This document shows, piece by piece, positions 10,390 through 18,238 of a stretch of DNA of 64,000 nt (positions are counted from its first letter, which is position 1; every line of letters starts with the position of its first letter). This DNA comes from Streptomyces solincola (GTDB lineage: Bacteria > Actinomycetota > Actinomycetes > Streptomycetales > Streptomycetaceae), in the NCBI RefSeq assembly GCF_002982015.1, contig NZ_PVLV01000071.1:1-64000 (forward strand), given 5' to 3'. Under the pieces are notes generated by a model. It ran no database searches, was not told the origin of the DNA, and saw only the letters and a program-made list of their open reading frames with translations. The position numbers and the translations under genes are program-made.

Positions 10390-10427
10390 TTGACAAACGT
10401 TTTCAATATTGTTGAAAATGACTGTCA
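10390..10427 (+). promoter_or_regulatory. Promoter of znuA with two Zur-like boxes; probably leaderless
   Basis: TTGACA at 10390-10395 and GAAAAT at 10414-10419, 18 bp apart, make a good promoter. It would start RNA within a base or two of the ATG at 10427, so the znuA message is probably leaderless. Two 15-mers of the 7-1-7 Zur form overlap it: TGACAAACGTTTTCA (10391-10405) and TGAAAATGACTGTCA (10413-10427). Against the remembered streptomycete Zur consensus TGAAAATGATTTTCA they match at about 11 and 13 of 15 positions. Their centres are 22 bp apart, two helical turns. By inference, zinc-loaded Zur covers the promoter and start codon and shuts the operon. Confidence 0.7.
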
Positions 10428-11422
10428 TGAGAGTACGCCGTTCGATACCTTCCGCCTCCGTCGCCGCCGCCGTCGCCCTCGGCCTGGTCACCCTGACCGC
10501 CTGCGGCGGCGCCGACTCCTCCCCGGCGGGAGCCGACGGCAAGGTGGACGTCGTCGCGTCCTTCTATCCGATGCAGTTCCTGGCCGAGCGCATCGGCGGC
10601 ACGCACGTCGACGTCACCACTCTGACCCGGCCCGGCACCGAGCCGCACGACCTGGAGCTCAAGCCCCGGCAGATCGGCGAACTGGGCGAGGCCGACTACG
10701 TCCTCTACCTCAAGGGCCTCCAGCCCGCCGTGGACGAGGCCATCGACCAGGCCGAGGTGCGGAACAAGGTCGACGCCGGCTCGCTGACCACCCTGGAGAG
10801 CCACGGCGCGTCCACCGAGGGCCACAGCCATGAGCACGGCGAAGAGGGCCACGGCGAAGAGGGGCACGGCGAAGAGGGCCATGACCACGAGCACGAGGCC
10901 GGCACCGACCCGCACGTCTGGCTGGACCCGGTGAAGTACGCCGAGATCGCCAAGGGCGTCGGCGACTCCCTGGCCAAGGCCGACCCGGACCACGCCGCCG
11001 ACTACGAGAAGAACACCGACGCGCTGGTCAAGGAGCTGACCGCGCTCGACACCGCGTACCGGACGGGCCTGGAGAACACCGCCACCCGCACTTTCATCAC
11101 CACCCACGCCGCCTTCGGCTACCTCGCCGAGCGCTACGGCCTGGACCAGGAGGGCATCTCCGGCGTGAGCCCCGAGTCCGAGCCCAGCCCGGCGCGGATC
11201 AAGGCCCTCCAGTCCATCGCGAGGAAGGACAAGGTGAACACCGTGTTCTTTGAAACGCTCGCCAGCGACCGCACCGCGAAGACCCTGGCCAAGGACACCG
11301 GCCTGAAGACCGACGTGCTTGACCCGCTGGAGGGCATCACCGACCGCAGCAAGGGCGAGGACTACCTCCAGGTCATGCAGGCCAACCTGACCGCCCTGAA
11401 GAAGTCCCTGGGGGCCCGATGA
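10427..11422 (+). CDS. znuA: Zinc ABC transporter substrate-binding lipoprotein
   Basis: A 331-residue cluster A-I metal-binding protein. The signal peptide ends in the lipobox LTAC (Cys around residue 25), so the mature protein is anchored to the outer face of the membrane. FYPMQFLAERIGG begins the first lobe. GTEPHDLELKP carries the first metal-ligand His. A His/Glu-rich loop (GHSHEHGEEGHGEEGHGEEG) followed by DPHVWLDP is typical of zinc rather than manganese receptors. FITTHAAFGYLAERY supplies the next ligand His. The ATG at 10427 fits the promoter; a TTG at 10409 and an ATG at 10418 are in frame but lie inside the promoter elements. The stop overlaps znuC by ATGA, so the genes are translationally coupled. 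Confidence 0.94.
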   Translation: MRVRRSIPSASVAAAVALGLVTLTACGGADSSPAGADGKVDVVASFYPMQFLAERIGGTHVDVTTLTRPGTEPHDLELKPRQIGELGEADYVLYLKGLQPAVDEAIDQAEVRNKVDAGSLTTLESHGASTEGHSHEHGEEGHGEEGHGEEGHDHEHEAGTDPHVWLDPVKYAEIAKGVGDSLAKADPDHAADYEKNTDALVKELTALDTAYRTGLENTATRTFITTHAAFGYLAERYGLDQEGISGVSPESEPSPARIKALQSIARKDKVNTVFFETLASDRTAKTLAKDTGLKTDVLDPLEGITDRSKGEDYLQVMQANLTALKKSLGAR

Positions 11423-12273
11423 CGCAGCCGGCCGAGCGGCGGCCCGCCGGGCGGCCCACCGTCCCGAAAGCGCGCAGCAAGCCGATCGAGGACACCATGG
11501 AATCCGTGGAGAGCACCGAGCCCGTCATAGCCGTCCGCGCCGCCACCGCCACCCTCGGCGCGCGGCCCGTGCTGCGGGGCGTCGACCTCACCGTGAACCG
11601 CGGCGAGGTGGTCGCCCTGCTCGGGGCGAACGGCTCCGGCAAGTCCACCGCCGTCCGCTCGGTCATCGGCCAGGTGCCGCTGACCGGCGGCTCGGTCGCC
11701 CTGTTCGGCACCGGGCTGCGGCGCTTCCGCGACTGGGCCAGGGTCGGCTACGTGCCGCAGCGCACCACCGCCGCCGGCGGGGTGCCCGCCACCGTGCGCG
11801 AGGTCGTCTCCTCCGGCCGGCTCTCCCGGGCGAAGCTGGGCCGGCTCCGCAAGGCCGACCGGGCCGCGGTGGACCGGGCCATCGAGCTGGTGGGCCTGGC
11901 CGACCGGGCGAAGGACTCGGTCAGCGCGCTGTCCGGCGGCCAGCACCAGCGGGTGCTGATCGCCCGCGCGCTGGCCGCCGAACCGGAGCTGCTGATCATG
12001 GACGAGCCGATGGCCGGGGTGGACCTGGCCAGCCAGGAGGTGCTGGCCGACACCCTGCGCGAGCAGGTCGCCGCCGGCGCGACGGTGCTGCTGGTCCTGC
12101 ACGAGCTGGGCCCGCTGGAGCCGCTGATCGACCGCGCGGTCGTGCTGCGGGACGGCTGCGTCGTCCACGACGGGCCGCCGCCCGAGGCCGTCGGGCAGCA
12201 CGCGCTGCCCGGCCACGACCACGTACATCCGCACGCGGCCGACGAGCCGCTTCGCACGGGACTGTTCACCTGA
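11419..12273 (+). CDS. znuC: Zinc ABC transporter ATP-binding protein
   Basis: A 284-residue ATPase that powers zinc import with ZnuA and ZnuB. Walker A is LLGANGSGKST, the Q-loop follows at VGYVPQR, the signature is LSGGQHQR, Walker B is LLIMDEPMAGVD, and the switch His is in LVLHELGPLEP. The start codon overlaps the znuA stop. About 35 extra N-terminal residues precede the fold, so a later in-frame ATG at 11497 (MESVESTEP) could be the true start. A His-containing tail (PGHDHVHPHAADE) is found in several zinc ATPases. Two bases separate its stop from the znuB start. Confidence 0.94.
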   Translation: MTQPAERRPAGRPTVPKARSKPIEDTMESVESTEPVIAVRAATATLGARPVLRGVDLTVNRGEVVALLGANGSGKSTAVRSVIGQVPLTGGSVALFGTGLRRFRDWARVGYVPQRTTAAGGVPATVREVVSSGRLSRAKLGRLRKADRAAVDRAIELVGLADRAKDSVSALSGGQHQRVLIARALAAEPELLIMDEPMAGVDLASQEVLADTLREQVAAGATVLLVLHELGPLEPLIDRAVVLRDGCVVHDGPPPEAVGQHALPGHDHVHPHAADEPLRTGLFT

Positions 12274-12275
12274 CC

Positions 12276-13184
12276 ATGGAATTCCTCCAGTTCGCCTTCA
12301 TGCAGCGGGCACTGCTCGCGGCCGTGCTGGTCGGCGTCACCGCCCCGGCCGTCGGGATCTACCTGGTCCAGCGGCGGCAGGCGCTGATGGGCGACGGCAT
12401 CGGCCATGTCGCCATGACCGGCGTCGGCCTCGGCTTCCTGATGTCCACCAACCCGGTGTGGATGGCCACCCTGGTCGCCGTGCTGGGCGCGGTCGCCATG
12501 GAGCTGATCCGCTCCTACGGCCGCACCCACGGCGACATCGCGCTGGCCCTGCTGTTCTACGGCGGCATGGCCGGCGGCGTGATGCTGATCAACCTCGCCC
12601 CCGGCGGGTCGAACGCCAACCTCACCTCGTACCTCTTCGGCTCGCTGTCCACGGTCTCCGCGGACGACATCGTCTCGATCTGCCTGCTGGCCGCGTTCGT
12701 GATGCTGGTCACCCTCGGCCTGCGCCGGCAGTTGTTCGCGGTCAGCCAGGACGAGGAGTTCGCCCGGGTCACCGGGCTGCCGGTGCGCGCGCTGAACCTG
12801 CTGGTCGCGATCACCGCCGCGGTCACCGTCACCGTCGCCATGCGGGTGGTCGGCCTGCTGCTGGTCAGCGCCCTGATGGTGGTGCCGGTCGCGGCCGCCC
12901 AGCAGCTGGCCCGCAGCTTCCGCGCCACCTTCGTGATCGCCGTGCTCGTCGGCACCGGTGTCACCCTGGCCGGCACGGTCACGTCCTACTACCAGGACGT
13001 GCCGCCCGGCGCGACCATCGTGCTGCTCGCCATCGCGGTGTTCGTGCTGCTCACCGCGCTGGCCGCGCCGCTGTCCCGCCGCCGCGCGCGGGCCGCCGCC
13101 CCGCCCGGCGAGGCCGCCGCCGACACCTGCGACGTGGCCGTCCCCTCCGGCACCGGCACGGGAGGCGACGACGTACGGGTGTGA
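12276..13184 (+). CDS. znuB: Zinc ABC transporter permease
   Basis: A 302-residue integral membrane protein of the ABC-3 family with about eight hydrophobic segments. MEFLQFAFMQRALLAAVLVG begins the first and GDGIGHVAMTGVGLGF follows the first loop. The family region VVGLLLVSALMVVPVAAAQQ lies near residue 195. The C-terminal 35 residues are hydrophilic. It forms the membrane channel of the zinc importer and is the last gene of the znuACB operon; zur starts about 90 bp later with its own ribosome-binding site. Confidence 0.94.
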   Translation: MEFLQFAFMQRALLAAVLVGVTAPAVGIYLVQRRQALMGDGIGHVAMTGVGLGFLMSTNPVWMATLVAVLGAVAMELIRSYGRTHGDIALALLFYGGMAGGVMLINLAPGGSNANLTSYLFGSLSTVSADDIVSICLLAAFVMLVTLGLRRQLFAVSQDEEFARVTGLPVRALNLLVAITAAVTVTVAMRVVGLLLVSALMVVPVAAAQQLARSFRATFVIAVLVGTGVTLAGTVTSYYQDVPPGATIVLLAIAVFVLLTALAAPLSRRRARAAAPPGEAAADTCDVAVPSGTGTGGDDVRV

Positions 13185-13275
13185 CGGGCCCCGCGCCCGG
13201 TCCGGGCCTCCCTCCGGGGGAGCCTGGCAGAATGGCCCGCGTACATATGAGCGGGTCGAGTGTGAGGAGGCACCT

Positions 13276-13701
13276 GTGGCGACTGCTGGACCCCCCGGCG
13301 TGCGCGGCCGGTCGACCCGGCAGCGGGCCGCCGTGTCGGCGGCGCTGAACGAGGTCGACGAGTTCCGCAGCGCGCAGGACCTGCACGACATGCTGAAGCA
13401 CCGGGGCGACTCGGTGGGCCTCACCACCGTCTACCGCACCCTCCAGTCGCTCGCCGAGGCGGGCGAGGTGGACGTGCTGCGCACCAGCGACGGCGAGGCG
13501 GTCTACCGCCGCTGCTCCACCGGCGAGCACCACCACCACCTGGTGTGCCGGGTGTGCGGCAAGGCCGTCGAGGTCGAGGGCCCCGCGGTCGAGCAGTGGG
13601 CGGAGTCCATCGCCGCCCAGCACGGCTTCGTGAACGTCGCCCACACCGTCGAGGTCTTCGGCACCTGCGAGGACTGCGCCAAGGCCGCCGCCGACGCCTG
13701 A
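13276..13701 (+). CDS. zur: Zinc uptake regulator of the Fur family
   Basis: A 141-residue zinc-sensing repressor. GTG at 13276 is preceded by GAGGAGG (13264-13270). The winged helix covers about residues 12-80 (STRQRAAVSAAL, VGLTTVYRTLQSLAEAG). The dimerisation domain has the metal-binding run GEHHHHLVCRVCGKAVEVEG and a second Cys pair in FGTCEDC, giving the structural zinc site. Known Zur proteins repress zinc importers and alternative ribosomal proteins when zinc is plentiful. The Zur-like boxes in front of znuA make local feedback likely. Confidence 0.95.
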   Translation: MATAGPPGVRGRSTRQRAAVSAALNEVDEFRSAQDLHDMLKHRGDSVGLTTVYRTLQSLAEAGEVDVLRTSDGEAVYRRCSTGEHHHHLVCRVCGKAVEVEGPAVEQWAESIAAQHGFVNVAHTVEVFGTCEDCAKAAADA

Positions 13702-15388: not shown

Positions 15389-16135
15389 TCACTTCTCCAC
15401 GTAGCGCAGCGAGCGCAGCCCGCGCTCCAGGTGCCAGTGCAGATAGGCCGAGACCAGTCCGCTGCCCTCCCGGACGTGCCGGGGCTCGCACGCGTCGGCC
15501 GTCGCCCAGTCGCCGGTCAGCAGCGCGCTGAGCAGCCCGACGGCCTCCGCAGAGGGTACGACGCTGCCGGGCACCCGGCAGTCGCCGCATATCACCCCGC
15601 CCGCCCCGACCGAGAAGAACCGGTTGGGTCCGGGCAGCCCGCAGCGCGCGCAGTCGTCGAAGGAGGGCGCGTAGCCGTTGACCGCGAGCGAGCGCAGCAG
15701 GAAGGCGTCCAGGATCAGGTGCGGGGCGTGCTCGCCCCTCGACAGCGTCCGCAGGCCGCCCACCAGCAGCAGGTACTGCTGCACGGCCGGCTCGCCCTCG
15801 TGGTCGGTGAACCGCTCGGCCGTCTCCAGCATGGCCGTCCCGGCGGTGTAGCGGGCGTAGTCGGTGACGATCCCGCCGCCGTACGGGGCGATGGTCTCGC
15901 TCTGCGTGCACAGCGGCAGCCCCCGCCCCACCAGCTCGCTGCCGCGCGCGAAGAACTGCACGTCGACATGGCTGAAGGGCTCCAGCCGGGCCCCGAACTT
16001 CGACTTCGTGCGCCGCACCCCGCGCGCCACCGCCCGCACCCGCCCGTGCGCCCGGGTGAGGATCGTGATGATGCGGTCCGCCTCACCCAGCTTCTGGGTG
16101 CGCAGCACGATGCCGTCGTCGCGGAACAGGGTCAT
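15389..16135 (-). CDS. recO: DNA repair protein RecO
   Basis: A 248-residue recombination mediator that helps load RecA onto SSB-coated single-stranded DNA with RecR. The N-terminal OB-fold begins [21 protein letters not shown] helical domain follows, and a zinc site is formed by two Cys pairs (CARCG and ICGDC) near residues 175-200. The start at 16135 is chosen because it coincides with the canonical N-terminus; the frame stays open upstream to 16198. It lies upstream of uppS in one operon, and divergently faces the HEAT/MerR operon across a 90-bp gap. Confidence 0.93.
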
Positions 16136-16177
16136 GCGGTCCATTCTCCCGTACGCCGCCCCGGTCCCCGCCCCCGC

Positions 16178-16208
16178 TTGACCTTGCCACGGTGGCAAGG
16201 TCTTGCCT
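16178..16208 (+). promoter_or_regulatory. MerR-type promoter with a perfect 23-bp palindrome in a 19-bp spacer
   Basis: GACCTTGCCAC (16180-16190), a central G (16191) and GTGGCAAGGTC (16192-16202) form a perfect inverted repeat. TTGACC (16178-16183) fits a -35 element and TTGCCT (16203-16208) a weak -10, separated by exactly 19 bp. That over-long spacer filled with a dyad is the signature of promoters activated by MerR-family proteins, which untwist the DNA. The operon it drives encodes a MerR-family protein as its second gene. Confidence 0.78.
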
Positions 16209-16228
16209 GGGGCCCGGAGGTGGTCCTG

Positions 16229-16894
16229 ATGATCAGGCCGGACGACGACATGGACACGCGGCCGCTGGCGGAGGGCGGTGCTTCGGCACGGCTGCGCGCC
16301 GCGCTGGCGCTCGGCACGTCACCCGACCCGCGCGCGCTCGCCGCGCTGGTCGAGCGGTGCGCGGTCGAACCCGACTTCCCGGTGCGCGAGGCGCTGACCT
16401 GGGCGCTCACCCGCCTTCCGGCGGCGCTCACCGTCCCGGCGCTGGTGGGCGAGCTGGGCTCCGCGACGGCCCAGGCGCGCAGCCAGGCGCTGCACACCCT
16501 GTCCAAGATCGGCGACCGGCGGGCCTGGCCGGCGATCACCCGGGCGCTGCTGACCGACGCCGACGACGAGGTGGCCCGCACCGCCTGGCGTGCGGCGGCC
16601 GCCCTGGCCCCGGAGGACGAGCGGCCCGCGCTCGCGGCCGTCCTGGCGTCCCAACTGGGGCGCGGCGGCCGGGAGACGCAGCGCAGTCTCAGCCGGGCGC
16701 TCGTCGCCGTCGGCGAGGCGGCCGTGCCGGTCCTCCTGCACACCGCCGCCTCCGCCCCCGACCCGGTCGTACGCGAGCACGCGCTGGCCACCGAACGGCT
16801 GCGGCGCGACCCGGACAGCGGGTTCGACTTCGCGATCGAGGAGGCGAGGCGCATCGTGGCCCTGGGCGGCGACGGCCGCCGGCCGGCGGGATGA
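16229..16894 (+). CDS. HEAT-repeat protein
   Basis: This 221-residue protein is almost entirely helical HEAT-like repeats of about 30 residues. One example is EALTWALTRLPAALTVPALV; another is SQALHTLSKIGDRRAWPAIT. Others follow at about residues 30-200. It has no catalytic motif, signal peptide or membrane segment, so it is a cytoplasmic scaffold or binding protein. The ATG at 16229 has GGAGG eight bases upstream. It directly follows the palindromic promoter and lies 13 bp before the MerR-HEAT gene, so the two are one operon. By inference it partners or modulates the regulator through matching repeats. Confidence 0.8.
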   Translation: MIRPDDDMDTRPLAEGGASARLRAALALGTSPDPRALAALVERCAVEPDFPVREALTWALTRLPAALTVPALVGELGSATAQARSQALHTLSKIGDRRAWPAITRALLTDADDEVARTAWRAAAALAPEDERPALAAVLASQLGRGGRETQRSLSRALVAVGEAAVPVLLHTAASAPDPVVREHALATERLRRDPDSGFDFAIEEARRIVALGGDGRRPAG

Positions 16895-16907
16895 AGGGCG
16901 GGCGCGG

Positions 16908-17921
16908 ATGCTGATCGGTGAGGTGGCGCGGCGGTGCGGGGTCAGCGCCCGGATGCTCCGGCACTACGAGACGCTGGGCCTGGTCCGGCCGACCGGCCGC
17001 ACCGGCACCGGGTACCGCGCGTACGCCGAGGACGACCTGCGCCGGATCTTCCATGTGGAGAGCCTGCGGTCCCTGGGTCTCTCGCTGCGCGAGGTCGCGC
17101 GGGCCCTGGACGATCCGGGCTTCAGCCCCGCCGGGCTGGTGGACGACCTGATCCGGCGCACCGGCGAGCGCCTCGCGGCCGAGACGGAGCTGCTCACCCG
17201 CCTGCGCCGCATCGACGCGGCCGGGCCCGCCGACTGGGACGACGTGCTCCAGGCCGTCGCCCTGCTGCGGGCCCTGGGCTCCGCCAGCCCCAGGGCGCGC
17301 CAGCGCGCCGCCCTCGCCTCGGCGACGGAGGCTCCCGCCCCGGTGGACGCCCTGGTGGACGCGGTGCTGGCGGAGCGGGACCCGAACGTCGCGGGCGCCC
17401 TGCGGTGGGCCCTGGCCCGCGCGGGCCAGGACGCGCTCGCCCCGCTGTCCCGGGGGCTCGGCTCCCCCGACGCCGCCGTCCGCCGCCGTGCCGTGCGGGC
17501 CGTCGCCGGTCTTCCGCCCGGCCCGGCGGTGACCGAGGTGCTGCGCGAGGCCCACCGCACCAGCCCCGACGTGGCGGTACGCCGGCACGCGGCGTTGACG
17601 CTCGGGGCGCGGGGCGTGGCCGACGCCGTTCCGACGCTGGTCGACATGGTCGTCGTGGAGGTGAACGACGTGGACGCCGCCGACGCGCTGAGCACCCTGG
17701 CGGCCCGGCCCGCCCCCGCCGAGCGGATCGCCGCCCTGCTCGTCGAGCGGCTCGCTCACCGCGCCACCGGGCCCGCCGCCCGCCGGCGGCTGACCCAGGC
17801 GCTCGCCGGCATCCCGGGCCCCACCGCGACCCGCGCCCTGGCCGACCTGTGCGAGGACGAGGACCGGGCCGTCGCGCTCACCGCGAGCTACGTCCTGGGC
17901 ATGCGCGAGGGCCCCGGCTAG
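16908..17921 (+). CDS. MerR-family regulator fused to a C-terminal HEAT-repeat domain
   Basis: A 337-residue protein. Residues 1-70 are a MerR winged helix: MLIGEVARRCGVSARMLRHY, then the wing GLVRPTGRTGTGYRAY. The linker and dimerisation coil cover about residues 75-125. Beyond that, HEAT-like repeats fill the protein to its end (for example GALRWALARAGQDALAPLSR, and AVRRRAVRAVAGLP). No metal-binding Cys pair of the classic metal-sensing MerR proteins is present. The input is therefore probably a protein or small molecule bound by the repeats. The ribosome-binding site is weak and the gene is probably translated together with the HEAT gene 13 bp upstream. The palindromic promoter of the operon implies autoregulation. 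Confidence 0.85.
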   Translation: MLIGEVARRCGVSARMLRHYETLGLVRPTGRTGTGYRAYAEDDLRRIFHVESLRSLGLSLREVARALDDPGFSPAGLVDDLIRRTGERLAAETELLTRLRRIDAAGPADWDDVLQAVALLRALGSASPRARQRAALASATEAPAPVDALVDAVLAERDPNVAGALRWALARAGQDALAPLSRGLGSPDAAVRRRAVRAVAGLPPGPAVTEVLREAHRTSPDVAVRRHAALTLGARGVADAVPTLVDMVVVEVNDVDAADALSTLAARPAPAERIAALLVERLAHRATGPAARRRLTQALAGIPGPTATRALADLCEDEDRAVALTASYVLGMREGPG

Positions 17922-18001
17922 CCCCGTGCGCCGACCCCCACCCGTGAGGAAGGGGCCCGGTCCACGGGTCCGGCTCCTCCTGCCGGGCGTGTGGGCCGCG
18001 G

Positions 18002-18238
18002 TCAGACCACCTCGCCCCGGCTGCGGGCGTTGACGTACGCCGTCGCGGCGCTGATGCGTTCGGCGTCGGTCGCCCGGCGCACCCCGTCCGGCGGGCAGTC
18101 CCACTCCCGGCCGCCGCCGATGGGCCGCAGCTGGACGTACGGTCCGACCCGGCCCATCAGCCGCGCCACCCGCCCGGTGCGGATCTCCACGACGTACGCC
18201 CCCTCGGGCAGTCGGTCGCCCTCACACGACAGGCTCAC
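18002..18238 (-). CDS. Small conserved hypothetical protein
   Basis: A 78-residue soluble protein whose beta-rich first half (AYVVEIRTGRVARLMGRVGP, then YVQLRPIGG, then EWDCPP) looks like a small barrel or SH3-like module. A helical tail follows. I do not recognise a named domain, though the style is common among short streptomycete proteins encoded beside XRE/DUF397 pairs. It overlaps the end of the neighbouring 82-residue gene by 17 bases, so the two are translationally coupled, and both diverge from the XRE regulator gene. Confidence 0.6.
   Translation of the reverse strand: MSLSCEGDRLPEGAYVVEIRTGRVARLMGRVGPYVQLRPIGGGREWDCPPDGVRRATDAERISAATAYVNARSRGEVV

Follow-up and report, generated by a model that had tools for sequence, protein, structure and literature searches.

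The DNA that we analysed is a stretch of 64,000 nucleotides from Streptomyces solincola (hereafter, the window), in which a promoter and two genes on the same strand lie between the divergent recO gene and a small gene (Table 1). The first gene, whose ATG lies at 16229, encodes a stand-alone HEAT-repeat protein, and the second, which starts with the ATG at 16908 after an intergenic gap of 13 bp, encodes a MerR-type regulator with a HEAT-repeat effector domain (MerR-HEAT). Pfam supports these assignments with matches above the curated cut-offs: HEAT_2 at 54.5 bits in the stand-alone protein, and MerR_1 (PF13411; residues 1-68; 58.4 bits), MerR (PF00376; residues 3-39; 52.9 bits), and HEAT_2 (62.5 bits) in the regulator. 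Both the fusion of a MerR winged helix to HEAT repeats and the HEAT gene placed ahead of it, as proposed in the original prediction, are thus borne out. The N-terminus of the regulator has the winged helix-turn-helix expected of the MerR family, and the AF2 models, each made from 4 input sequences, have a mean pLDDT of 82.1 for the stand-alone protein and 82.6 for the regulator, where the monomer model predicts residues 74-102 as one long helix. Among its relatives, the mean pairwise identity of the regulator is 85% over residues 1-68, 72% over residues 69-104, and 61.5% over residues 105-337. Scans with Pfam and NCBIfam found no domains in the pair beyond HEAT and MerR, and the regulator reached none of the NCBIfam equivalog cut-offs. 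A scan of 15900-18200 found no terminator, and the fold of 17922-17995 was not clearly better than those of shuffles (z -1.26).

Table 1. Features of the two-gene cassette and its edges (positions in the window)
Feature	Position	Strand	Basis or remark
Inserted cassette, inferred extent, from recO to the small gene	16145-18001	+	recO regions of relatives; ends approximate
-35 element TTGACC	16178-16183	+	TTGACC in 111/116 distinct promoters
Operator dyad GACCTTGCCAC-G-GTGGCAAGGTC	16180-16202	+	shuffles, genome search, comparison across the genus
Putative -10 element TTGCCT, 19-bp spacing	16203-16208	+	family form TTCACT
Ribosome-binding site GGAGG of the HEAT gene	16216-16220	+	read from the sequence
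Stand-alone HEAT-repeat protein (P0001), 221 aa	16229-16894	+	HEAT_2; AF2 model
MerR-HEAT regulator (P0002), 337 aa	16908-17921	+	Pfam; AF2 model
MerR winged helix-turn-helix, residues 1-68 of P0002	16908-17111	+	PF13411, PF00376
Predicted MerR dimerisation helix, residues 74-102 of P0002	17127-17213	+	AF2 monomer model
HEAT-repeat effector domain, residues 110-333 of P0002, 14 helices	17235-17906	+	HEAT_2; AF2 model
Small gene at the far edge of the cassette	18002-18238	-	adjoins recO in several relatives

Ahead of the HEAT gene, the sequence reads as a -35 and a putative -10 element separated by a 19-bp spacer (16184-16202), with a perfect 23-bp dyad of 11-bp arms between them. The original prediction had this palindrome filling the spacer: The 19-bp spacing is right, and 19 of the 23 bp lie inside it, but the dyad runs 4 bases into the -35 element and shares the last four bases of the latter. 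At up to three mismatches, the dyad did not occur in 100 dinucleotide shuffles of the window and was unique in the window, and the search for the site elsewhere in the genome, a check that had been proposed at the outset, returned no second copy at this tolerance. The putative -10 element, TTCACT in the family and TTGCCT in the window, is a weak match to TATAAT, and a generic sigma-70 scan of 15900-18200, which admits only spacers of 16-18 bp and requires an A at -10 position 2, returned 0 promoters. In most of the promoters that we inspected by eye, GGAGG stands ahead of the start codon.

We compared the site across 295 genomes of the genus, an even sample of a larger group, using a 27-base pattern at up to three mismatches (a search that looser targets could escape) and thresholds of E 1e-30 for the regulator and E 1e-25 for the HEAT gene. 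The site was present in 131 genomes and the regulator in 133; both were found in 126, the site without the regulator in 5, and the regulator without the site in 7, while the reversed pattern, serving as a control, matched in none of the 295. For 124 of the 133 MerR-HEAT genes, the site lay upstream in the same orientation, at a distance of 712-914 bp, and all of the 151 two-gene loci (several per genome) had a site matching at least 19 of the 23 positions within 400 bp upstream of the HEAT gene. The site is thus conserved upstream of orthologues, a point on which the original prediction had been staked beforehand. Nine of the 133 regulators had no linked match: A diverged site lies immediately 5' of the HEAT gene in G087, G148, G182, G197, G203, and G235, as it does in G179 (L124), and the remaining two are a split case (G219, see below) and a fragment (G322).

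For the promoter statistics, we used 116 distinct promoters that were chosen because they match the consensus at 17 or more of its 23 positions, and they hence lean to good sites. These yielded the operator consensus GACCTTGACAC-n-GTGACAAGGTC and the promoter consensus gcTTGACCTTGACACgGTGacAaGgtcTTcACTg (capitals, >90%; small letters, >60%). At the 19-bp offset, where the dyad lies within a spacer of the 19-20 bp characteristic of the MerR family, the -10 element reads TTCACT in 90 of the 116 promoters and TTGCCT in one, that of the window, with a T at position six in all 116. Counted from the outside, pair eight is a mismatch in 109 of 116 promoters, the column frequencies giving A (92%) opposite A (89%), TTGACAC...GTGACAA, and only one of the 116, the window's own, carries a perfect dyad; the perfect palindrome that had been described is therefore true of the window and not of its relatives. 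Upon comparing 6,656 promoter pairs (pairs >80% alike upstream were left out), we found a pairwise identity of 87% within the 31-bp block from -35 to -10 versus 32% in the 36 bp just upstream, which places the onset of conservation no more than a few bases from the -35 element. Judged by this conservation, the site is real, and the proposed MerR activation geometry is backed by the comparison across the genus, in which TTGACC, the 19-bp offset, and the dyad are all conserved.

The pattern search found 133 sites in the 295 genomes, 9 of which were unlinked to a MerR-HEAT gene. Four of these 9 lay at decayed, split, or orphan copies (G136, G197, G219, and G107), and the other five lay elsewhere, each at three mismatches; those of G048, G117, G131, and G261 adjoin other MerR-family genes, and for that of G310 no explanation was found. 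With so few unlinked sites, the operon seems to have no target but itself.

Broken copies of the cassette were seen in several genomes. Those of G136 and G197 are decayed, and exact or near-exact sites stand before shortened or decaying HEAT genes at L113 5042-5650 and L114 4820-4980, where the regulator was not found, showing, as read from these remains, cassettes lost in the past. G107 carries the full pair and, elsewhere (contig C7; L127 3019-3531), another HEAT paralogue that is shorter, has a diverged site of its own, and lacks an adjacent regulator; it is possibly a target in trans or a remnant. G219 holds two reciprocal half-cassettes (L117 4831-5520 and L118 5751-6755): One contig has an exact site, an intact HEAT gene, and then a few codons resembling the start of the regulator (a remnant recognised by eye), and the other has a full-length regulator, without a linked site, after codons that by eye resemble the last ones of the HEAT gene. 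In this one draft genome, both proteins thus seem to survive the split, as if both were needed and could act in trans. In G256, an 88% complete genome, an exact site and an open regulator accompany a HEAT gene in broken frames (L102 7891-8610), reflecting either decay or sequence errors. Separately, in G131 and G261, genes of a different MerR-type family have a site at up to three mismatches just upstream (L126 105-860, together with L129 3308-4063).

The two genes are inherited together almost without exception. The HEAT gene and the MerR-HEAT gene each occur in 133 of the 295 genus genomes and both occur in 132, each being found alone once (G136, where the copy is decayed, and G322, where it is a fragment). 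Together with the conserved promoter of its own and the few other sites, this agrees with the earlier description of the pair as self-contained, and the pair is probably autoregulated. The gap from stop to start has a median of 3 bp (range, -14 to 204; 151 loci), which would often allow translational coupling, and the pairwise identities of HEAT protein and regulator correlate (rho 0.91, 78 loci, kinship uncorrected). Alignments were made from normal-length, stop-free proteins, namely, 94 unique regulators (156 loci) and 116 unique HEAT proteins (155 loci); several other copies look interrupted, with the regulator in two pieces in G021, G172, G186, and G321 and a stop in G232 and G309. A profile comparison matched the HEAT protein to the effector part of the regulator from the first repeat on, over 191 columns (96.3% probability, E 2e-9), although such matches come easier since HEAT domains are built of repeats; BLASTP between the two domains was weak (E 0.001), and in the HEAT-domain alignment of the window proteins WALTR faces WALAR. 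These alignments suggest that the two HEAT domains are probably homologous and that the stand-alone protein is a sensor-only paralogue.

Such findings could be read as a titration circuit, as suggested in the original prediction, in which the stand-alone protein would be an anti- or co-regulator that controls the regulator by contact with its HEAT domain until an outside protein releases it: The near-perfect co-inheritance, the short gaps, the colinear match of the HEAT domains, and the correlated divergence of the two proteins all suit it, and the HEAT/ARM proteins among the structure matches are mostly protein-binding scaffolds. However, without another target gene, this circuit would have no output unless the HEAT protein acts otherwise, and the conserved HEAT residues of the regulator are often basic and, by eye, not obviously complementary to the basic face of the partner described below. 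We regard this possibility as doubtful.

Which surface of the HEAT protein is conserved can be asked by comparison with alphaRep binders, whose variable repeat positions 18, 19, 22, 23, 26, and 30 are described as a surface essential in complexes (PMC3754942). phmmer aligns the stand-alone protein to alphaReps, and we assigned these positions manually, using the VR-type motif in its six repeats rather than model coordinates. We assume that the positions so placed are the concave side of the solenoid. Among the 116 HEAT protein sequences, L22, F50, W58, R62, Q86, H89, K93, R117, R121, S153, R156, and H184 of this face are 97-100% identical, and the mean entropy is 0.71 at the 36 face positions versus 0.47 in the core and 1.15 in the rest (face versus rest, p 0.009). 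The HEAT part of the regulator has no such excess at the face (entropy 1.11 versus 1.23, p 0.39), even though Q132, L136, G163, A164, W167, R194, D254, A258, R294, L295, and A298 are 95-100% identical there; of these, W167 occupies the same position of the second repeat as W58 of the stand-alone protein. The latter thus seems to have a conserved aromatic/basic face of its own that is mostly absent from the regulator, for which reason it may have a job of its own. From this pattern, we infer that the HEAT protein binds one conserved thing, perhaps anionic.

A precedent for a regulator accompanied by its own sensor is provided by the TipA class (TipAL/TipAS, SkgA), which, as described in PMC7762955, combines a MerR DNA-binding domain with a helical effector domain in a minimal autoregulated design. 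In TipA, one gene gives rise to the full regulator and, through an alternative start, to a sensor-only form, which is the predominant one of the two and sequesters thiopeptides (PMC7762955). The MerR-HEAT pair likewise includes a sensor-only product, but as a separate upstream gene instead of an isoform, with its own conserved face, and both proteins are made of HEAT repeats. By sequence, the regulator has its two best solved-structure matches in SkgA and the TipA N-domain. Pfam nevertheless found no TipAS domain (PF07739) in the regulator at E <=0.001, with HEAT_2 in its place, and because this domain is absent, MerR-HEAT resembles TipA in layout and is not a TipA.

Following TipAL/TipAS (PMC7762955), one might suppose a resistance pair whose two HEAT domains have one toxic small molecule as their common ligand, with the regulator inducing the operon and the HEAT protein soaking the molecule up. 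The probable sensor-only paralogue beside the sensor-regulator, the operon as sole target, and the scattered addresses (see below) would fit. Yet, of the face conserved in the HEAT protein, the regulator shares chiefly one Trp, which weakens the version with a shared ligand; the pair contains no TipAS domain; and no resistance gene is conserved beside it. We consider such a pair doubtful as well.

The cassette is scattered across the genomes that carry it. In the window, it is an inserted stretch of ~1.85 kb in which the gene finder reports the promoter and the two genes and nothing more. Among 17 relatives viewed, the small gene at its far edge lies within ~100 bp of the recO start in L193, L202, L204, and L205 and ~430 bp from it in L195, while most of the others have different genes beside recO; in three of the four relatives with the small gene near recO (G009, G015, and G016), the cassette sits at another place. 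We called genes in 42 neighbourhoods and used 27, leaving out 15 in which the gene finder gave no adjacent intact pair. These 27 intact flanked pairs occupy at least 20 addresses, even if one common immediate neighbour is taken to mean the same place. Each flanking gene family is present in at most 7 of the 42 neighbourhoods, and none of those compared has a conserved neighbour that hints at the signal.

Relatives (E 1e-20) occur on 20 plasmid records, 16 from Streptomyces, 2 from Embleya, and 1 each from Nocardia and Tsukamurella, of which the records of 2.7-5.7 Mb may be chromosome-like; none was found in phages at E 1e-10. The regulator is present in 67 of 394 genomes of the class, across 8 family codes, and all 10 matches among 296 genomes of the phylum fall in the window's class, the out-of-class share of that sample being only partly shown. 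In a protein tree (94 rows, quick method), 10 label changes are needed for the window's family (65 rows) and 8 for another family (f19), well supported branches forcing at least 3 in each. The tree fits transfer between families, and losses could add to the changes; together with the many addresses, it leads us to infer horizontal movement of the cassette. Terminal repeats or a target duplication did not stand out by eye among the many GC-rich chance pairs at its ends. On one Streptomyces plasmid (L190 7630-12266), the pair is flanked by genes for Tn3-family transposases and a recombinase gene.

The patchy distribution, the many addresses, the plasmid records, and the decayed copies would also be expected of a selfish, addiction-like module that maintains itself with no gain to the host. 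We think this improbable, as the scans found HEAT and MerR domains only, PADLOC giving weak matches to the HEAT and MerR parts, and as the copies lacking the regulator (G136, G197, and G107) have a shortened or decayed HEAT gene, with no sign of a kept toxin. That the dyad arose by chance, or is the operator of recO, whose start lies ~34 bp away, can be ruled out, given that the site accompanies the pair to loci without an adjacent recO and that the recO-flanking sequence in the relatives inspected has no site.

We therefore favour, with a probability of roughly three in four, a self-contained, horizontally moving, autoregulated MerR-type switch with the HEAT protein as its output. A MerR-HEAT dimer would bind the dyad between the -35 and -10 elements of its own promoter, which, with its 19-bp spacer, would be poorly used until the regulator acts. 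MerR promoters have spacers of 19-20 bp and are activated by DNA distortion, as described in PMC9909328, and since the 19-bp geometry is conserved, distortion is the most likely mode of activation here too, triggered by a signal received via the HEAT domain. A single transcript would then yield the stand-alone HEAT protein first and the regulator second. With no further target in evidence, the output of the operon would be the HEAT protein, which would most likely capture a specific target by its aromatic/basic face; our guess for this target is either the inducing molecule, which would be sensed and sequestered in the manner of TipAL/TipAS, or a surface of a cellular protein or of the regulator. 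The poised and DNA-bound regulator of this model has alternatives, since in the TipA class the unliganded effector domain is described to block DNA binding (PMC7762955), which by analogy may or may not hold for MerR-HEAT.

More tentatively, and with the odds somewhat against it, the pair could represent a new class of mobile one-operon sensing systems of actinomycetes, in which a MerR switch reads its signal through HEAT repeats and has a HEAT receptor as its sole, dedicated output. The near-invariant Trp/Arg/His/Lys groove of this receptor would then capture, across families, a single conserved molecule of anionic or peptide-like nature. If true, the favoured switch would be a MerR regulator that senses through a solenoid, a type of sensor that we did not meet in the MerR literature searched, within a compact cassette found in 133 of 295 (45%) sampled genus genomes. 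A single apparent target and a single partner would make for an unusually tractable circuit, and the conserved face would give direct access to the ligand, which may be an antibiotic or a common signal of soil actinomycetes.

Compared to known systems, MerR-HEAT shares with MerR, CueR, CadR, BmrR, and Mta (PMC9909328) the winged helix-turn-helix and the dyad in a 19-20 bp spacer, its predicted long helix may correspond to their dimerisation helix, and it differs from them in its HEAT solenoid effector and in having its own operon as sole apparent target. The main text of that review (PMC9909328) does not contain the word HEAT. HEAT_2 repeats and sequence or fold matches, all under the curated NCBIfam cut-offs, link the pair to CpcE/CpcF, NblB, and alphaRep (HEAT-like E-Z repeats), from which it is set apart by the lack of a phycobilisome context and by a partner with its own near-invariant face. 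No chain with a MerR-HEAT fusion appeared among the matches listed by Foldseek and VIA-align (50 each), which were general HEAT/ARM proteins and, for the regulator, also MerR DNA-binding domains, separately. The claim that no MerR of this design had been described holds insofar as no MerR with a HEAT sensor was described among the titles listed by our searches of the open-access literature, but the pair itself is widespread and already annotated in public records, as a HEAT repeat protein and a MerR-family regulator.

Two further observations concern the surroundings. On another Streptomyces plasmid (L133 11287-12996), a gene annotated for thiopeptide-type bacteriocin biosynthesis lies ~4 kb downstream of the pair, a single case. 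In the window itself, the genes at 10418-13701 resemble a set of metal-binding protein, ABC transporter, and Fur-family regulator, which may serve zinc uptake and Zur-like control.
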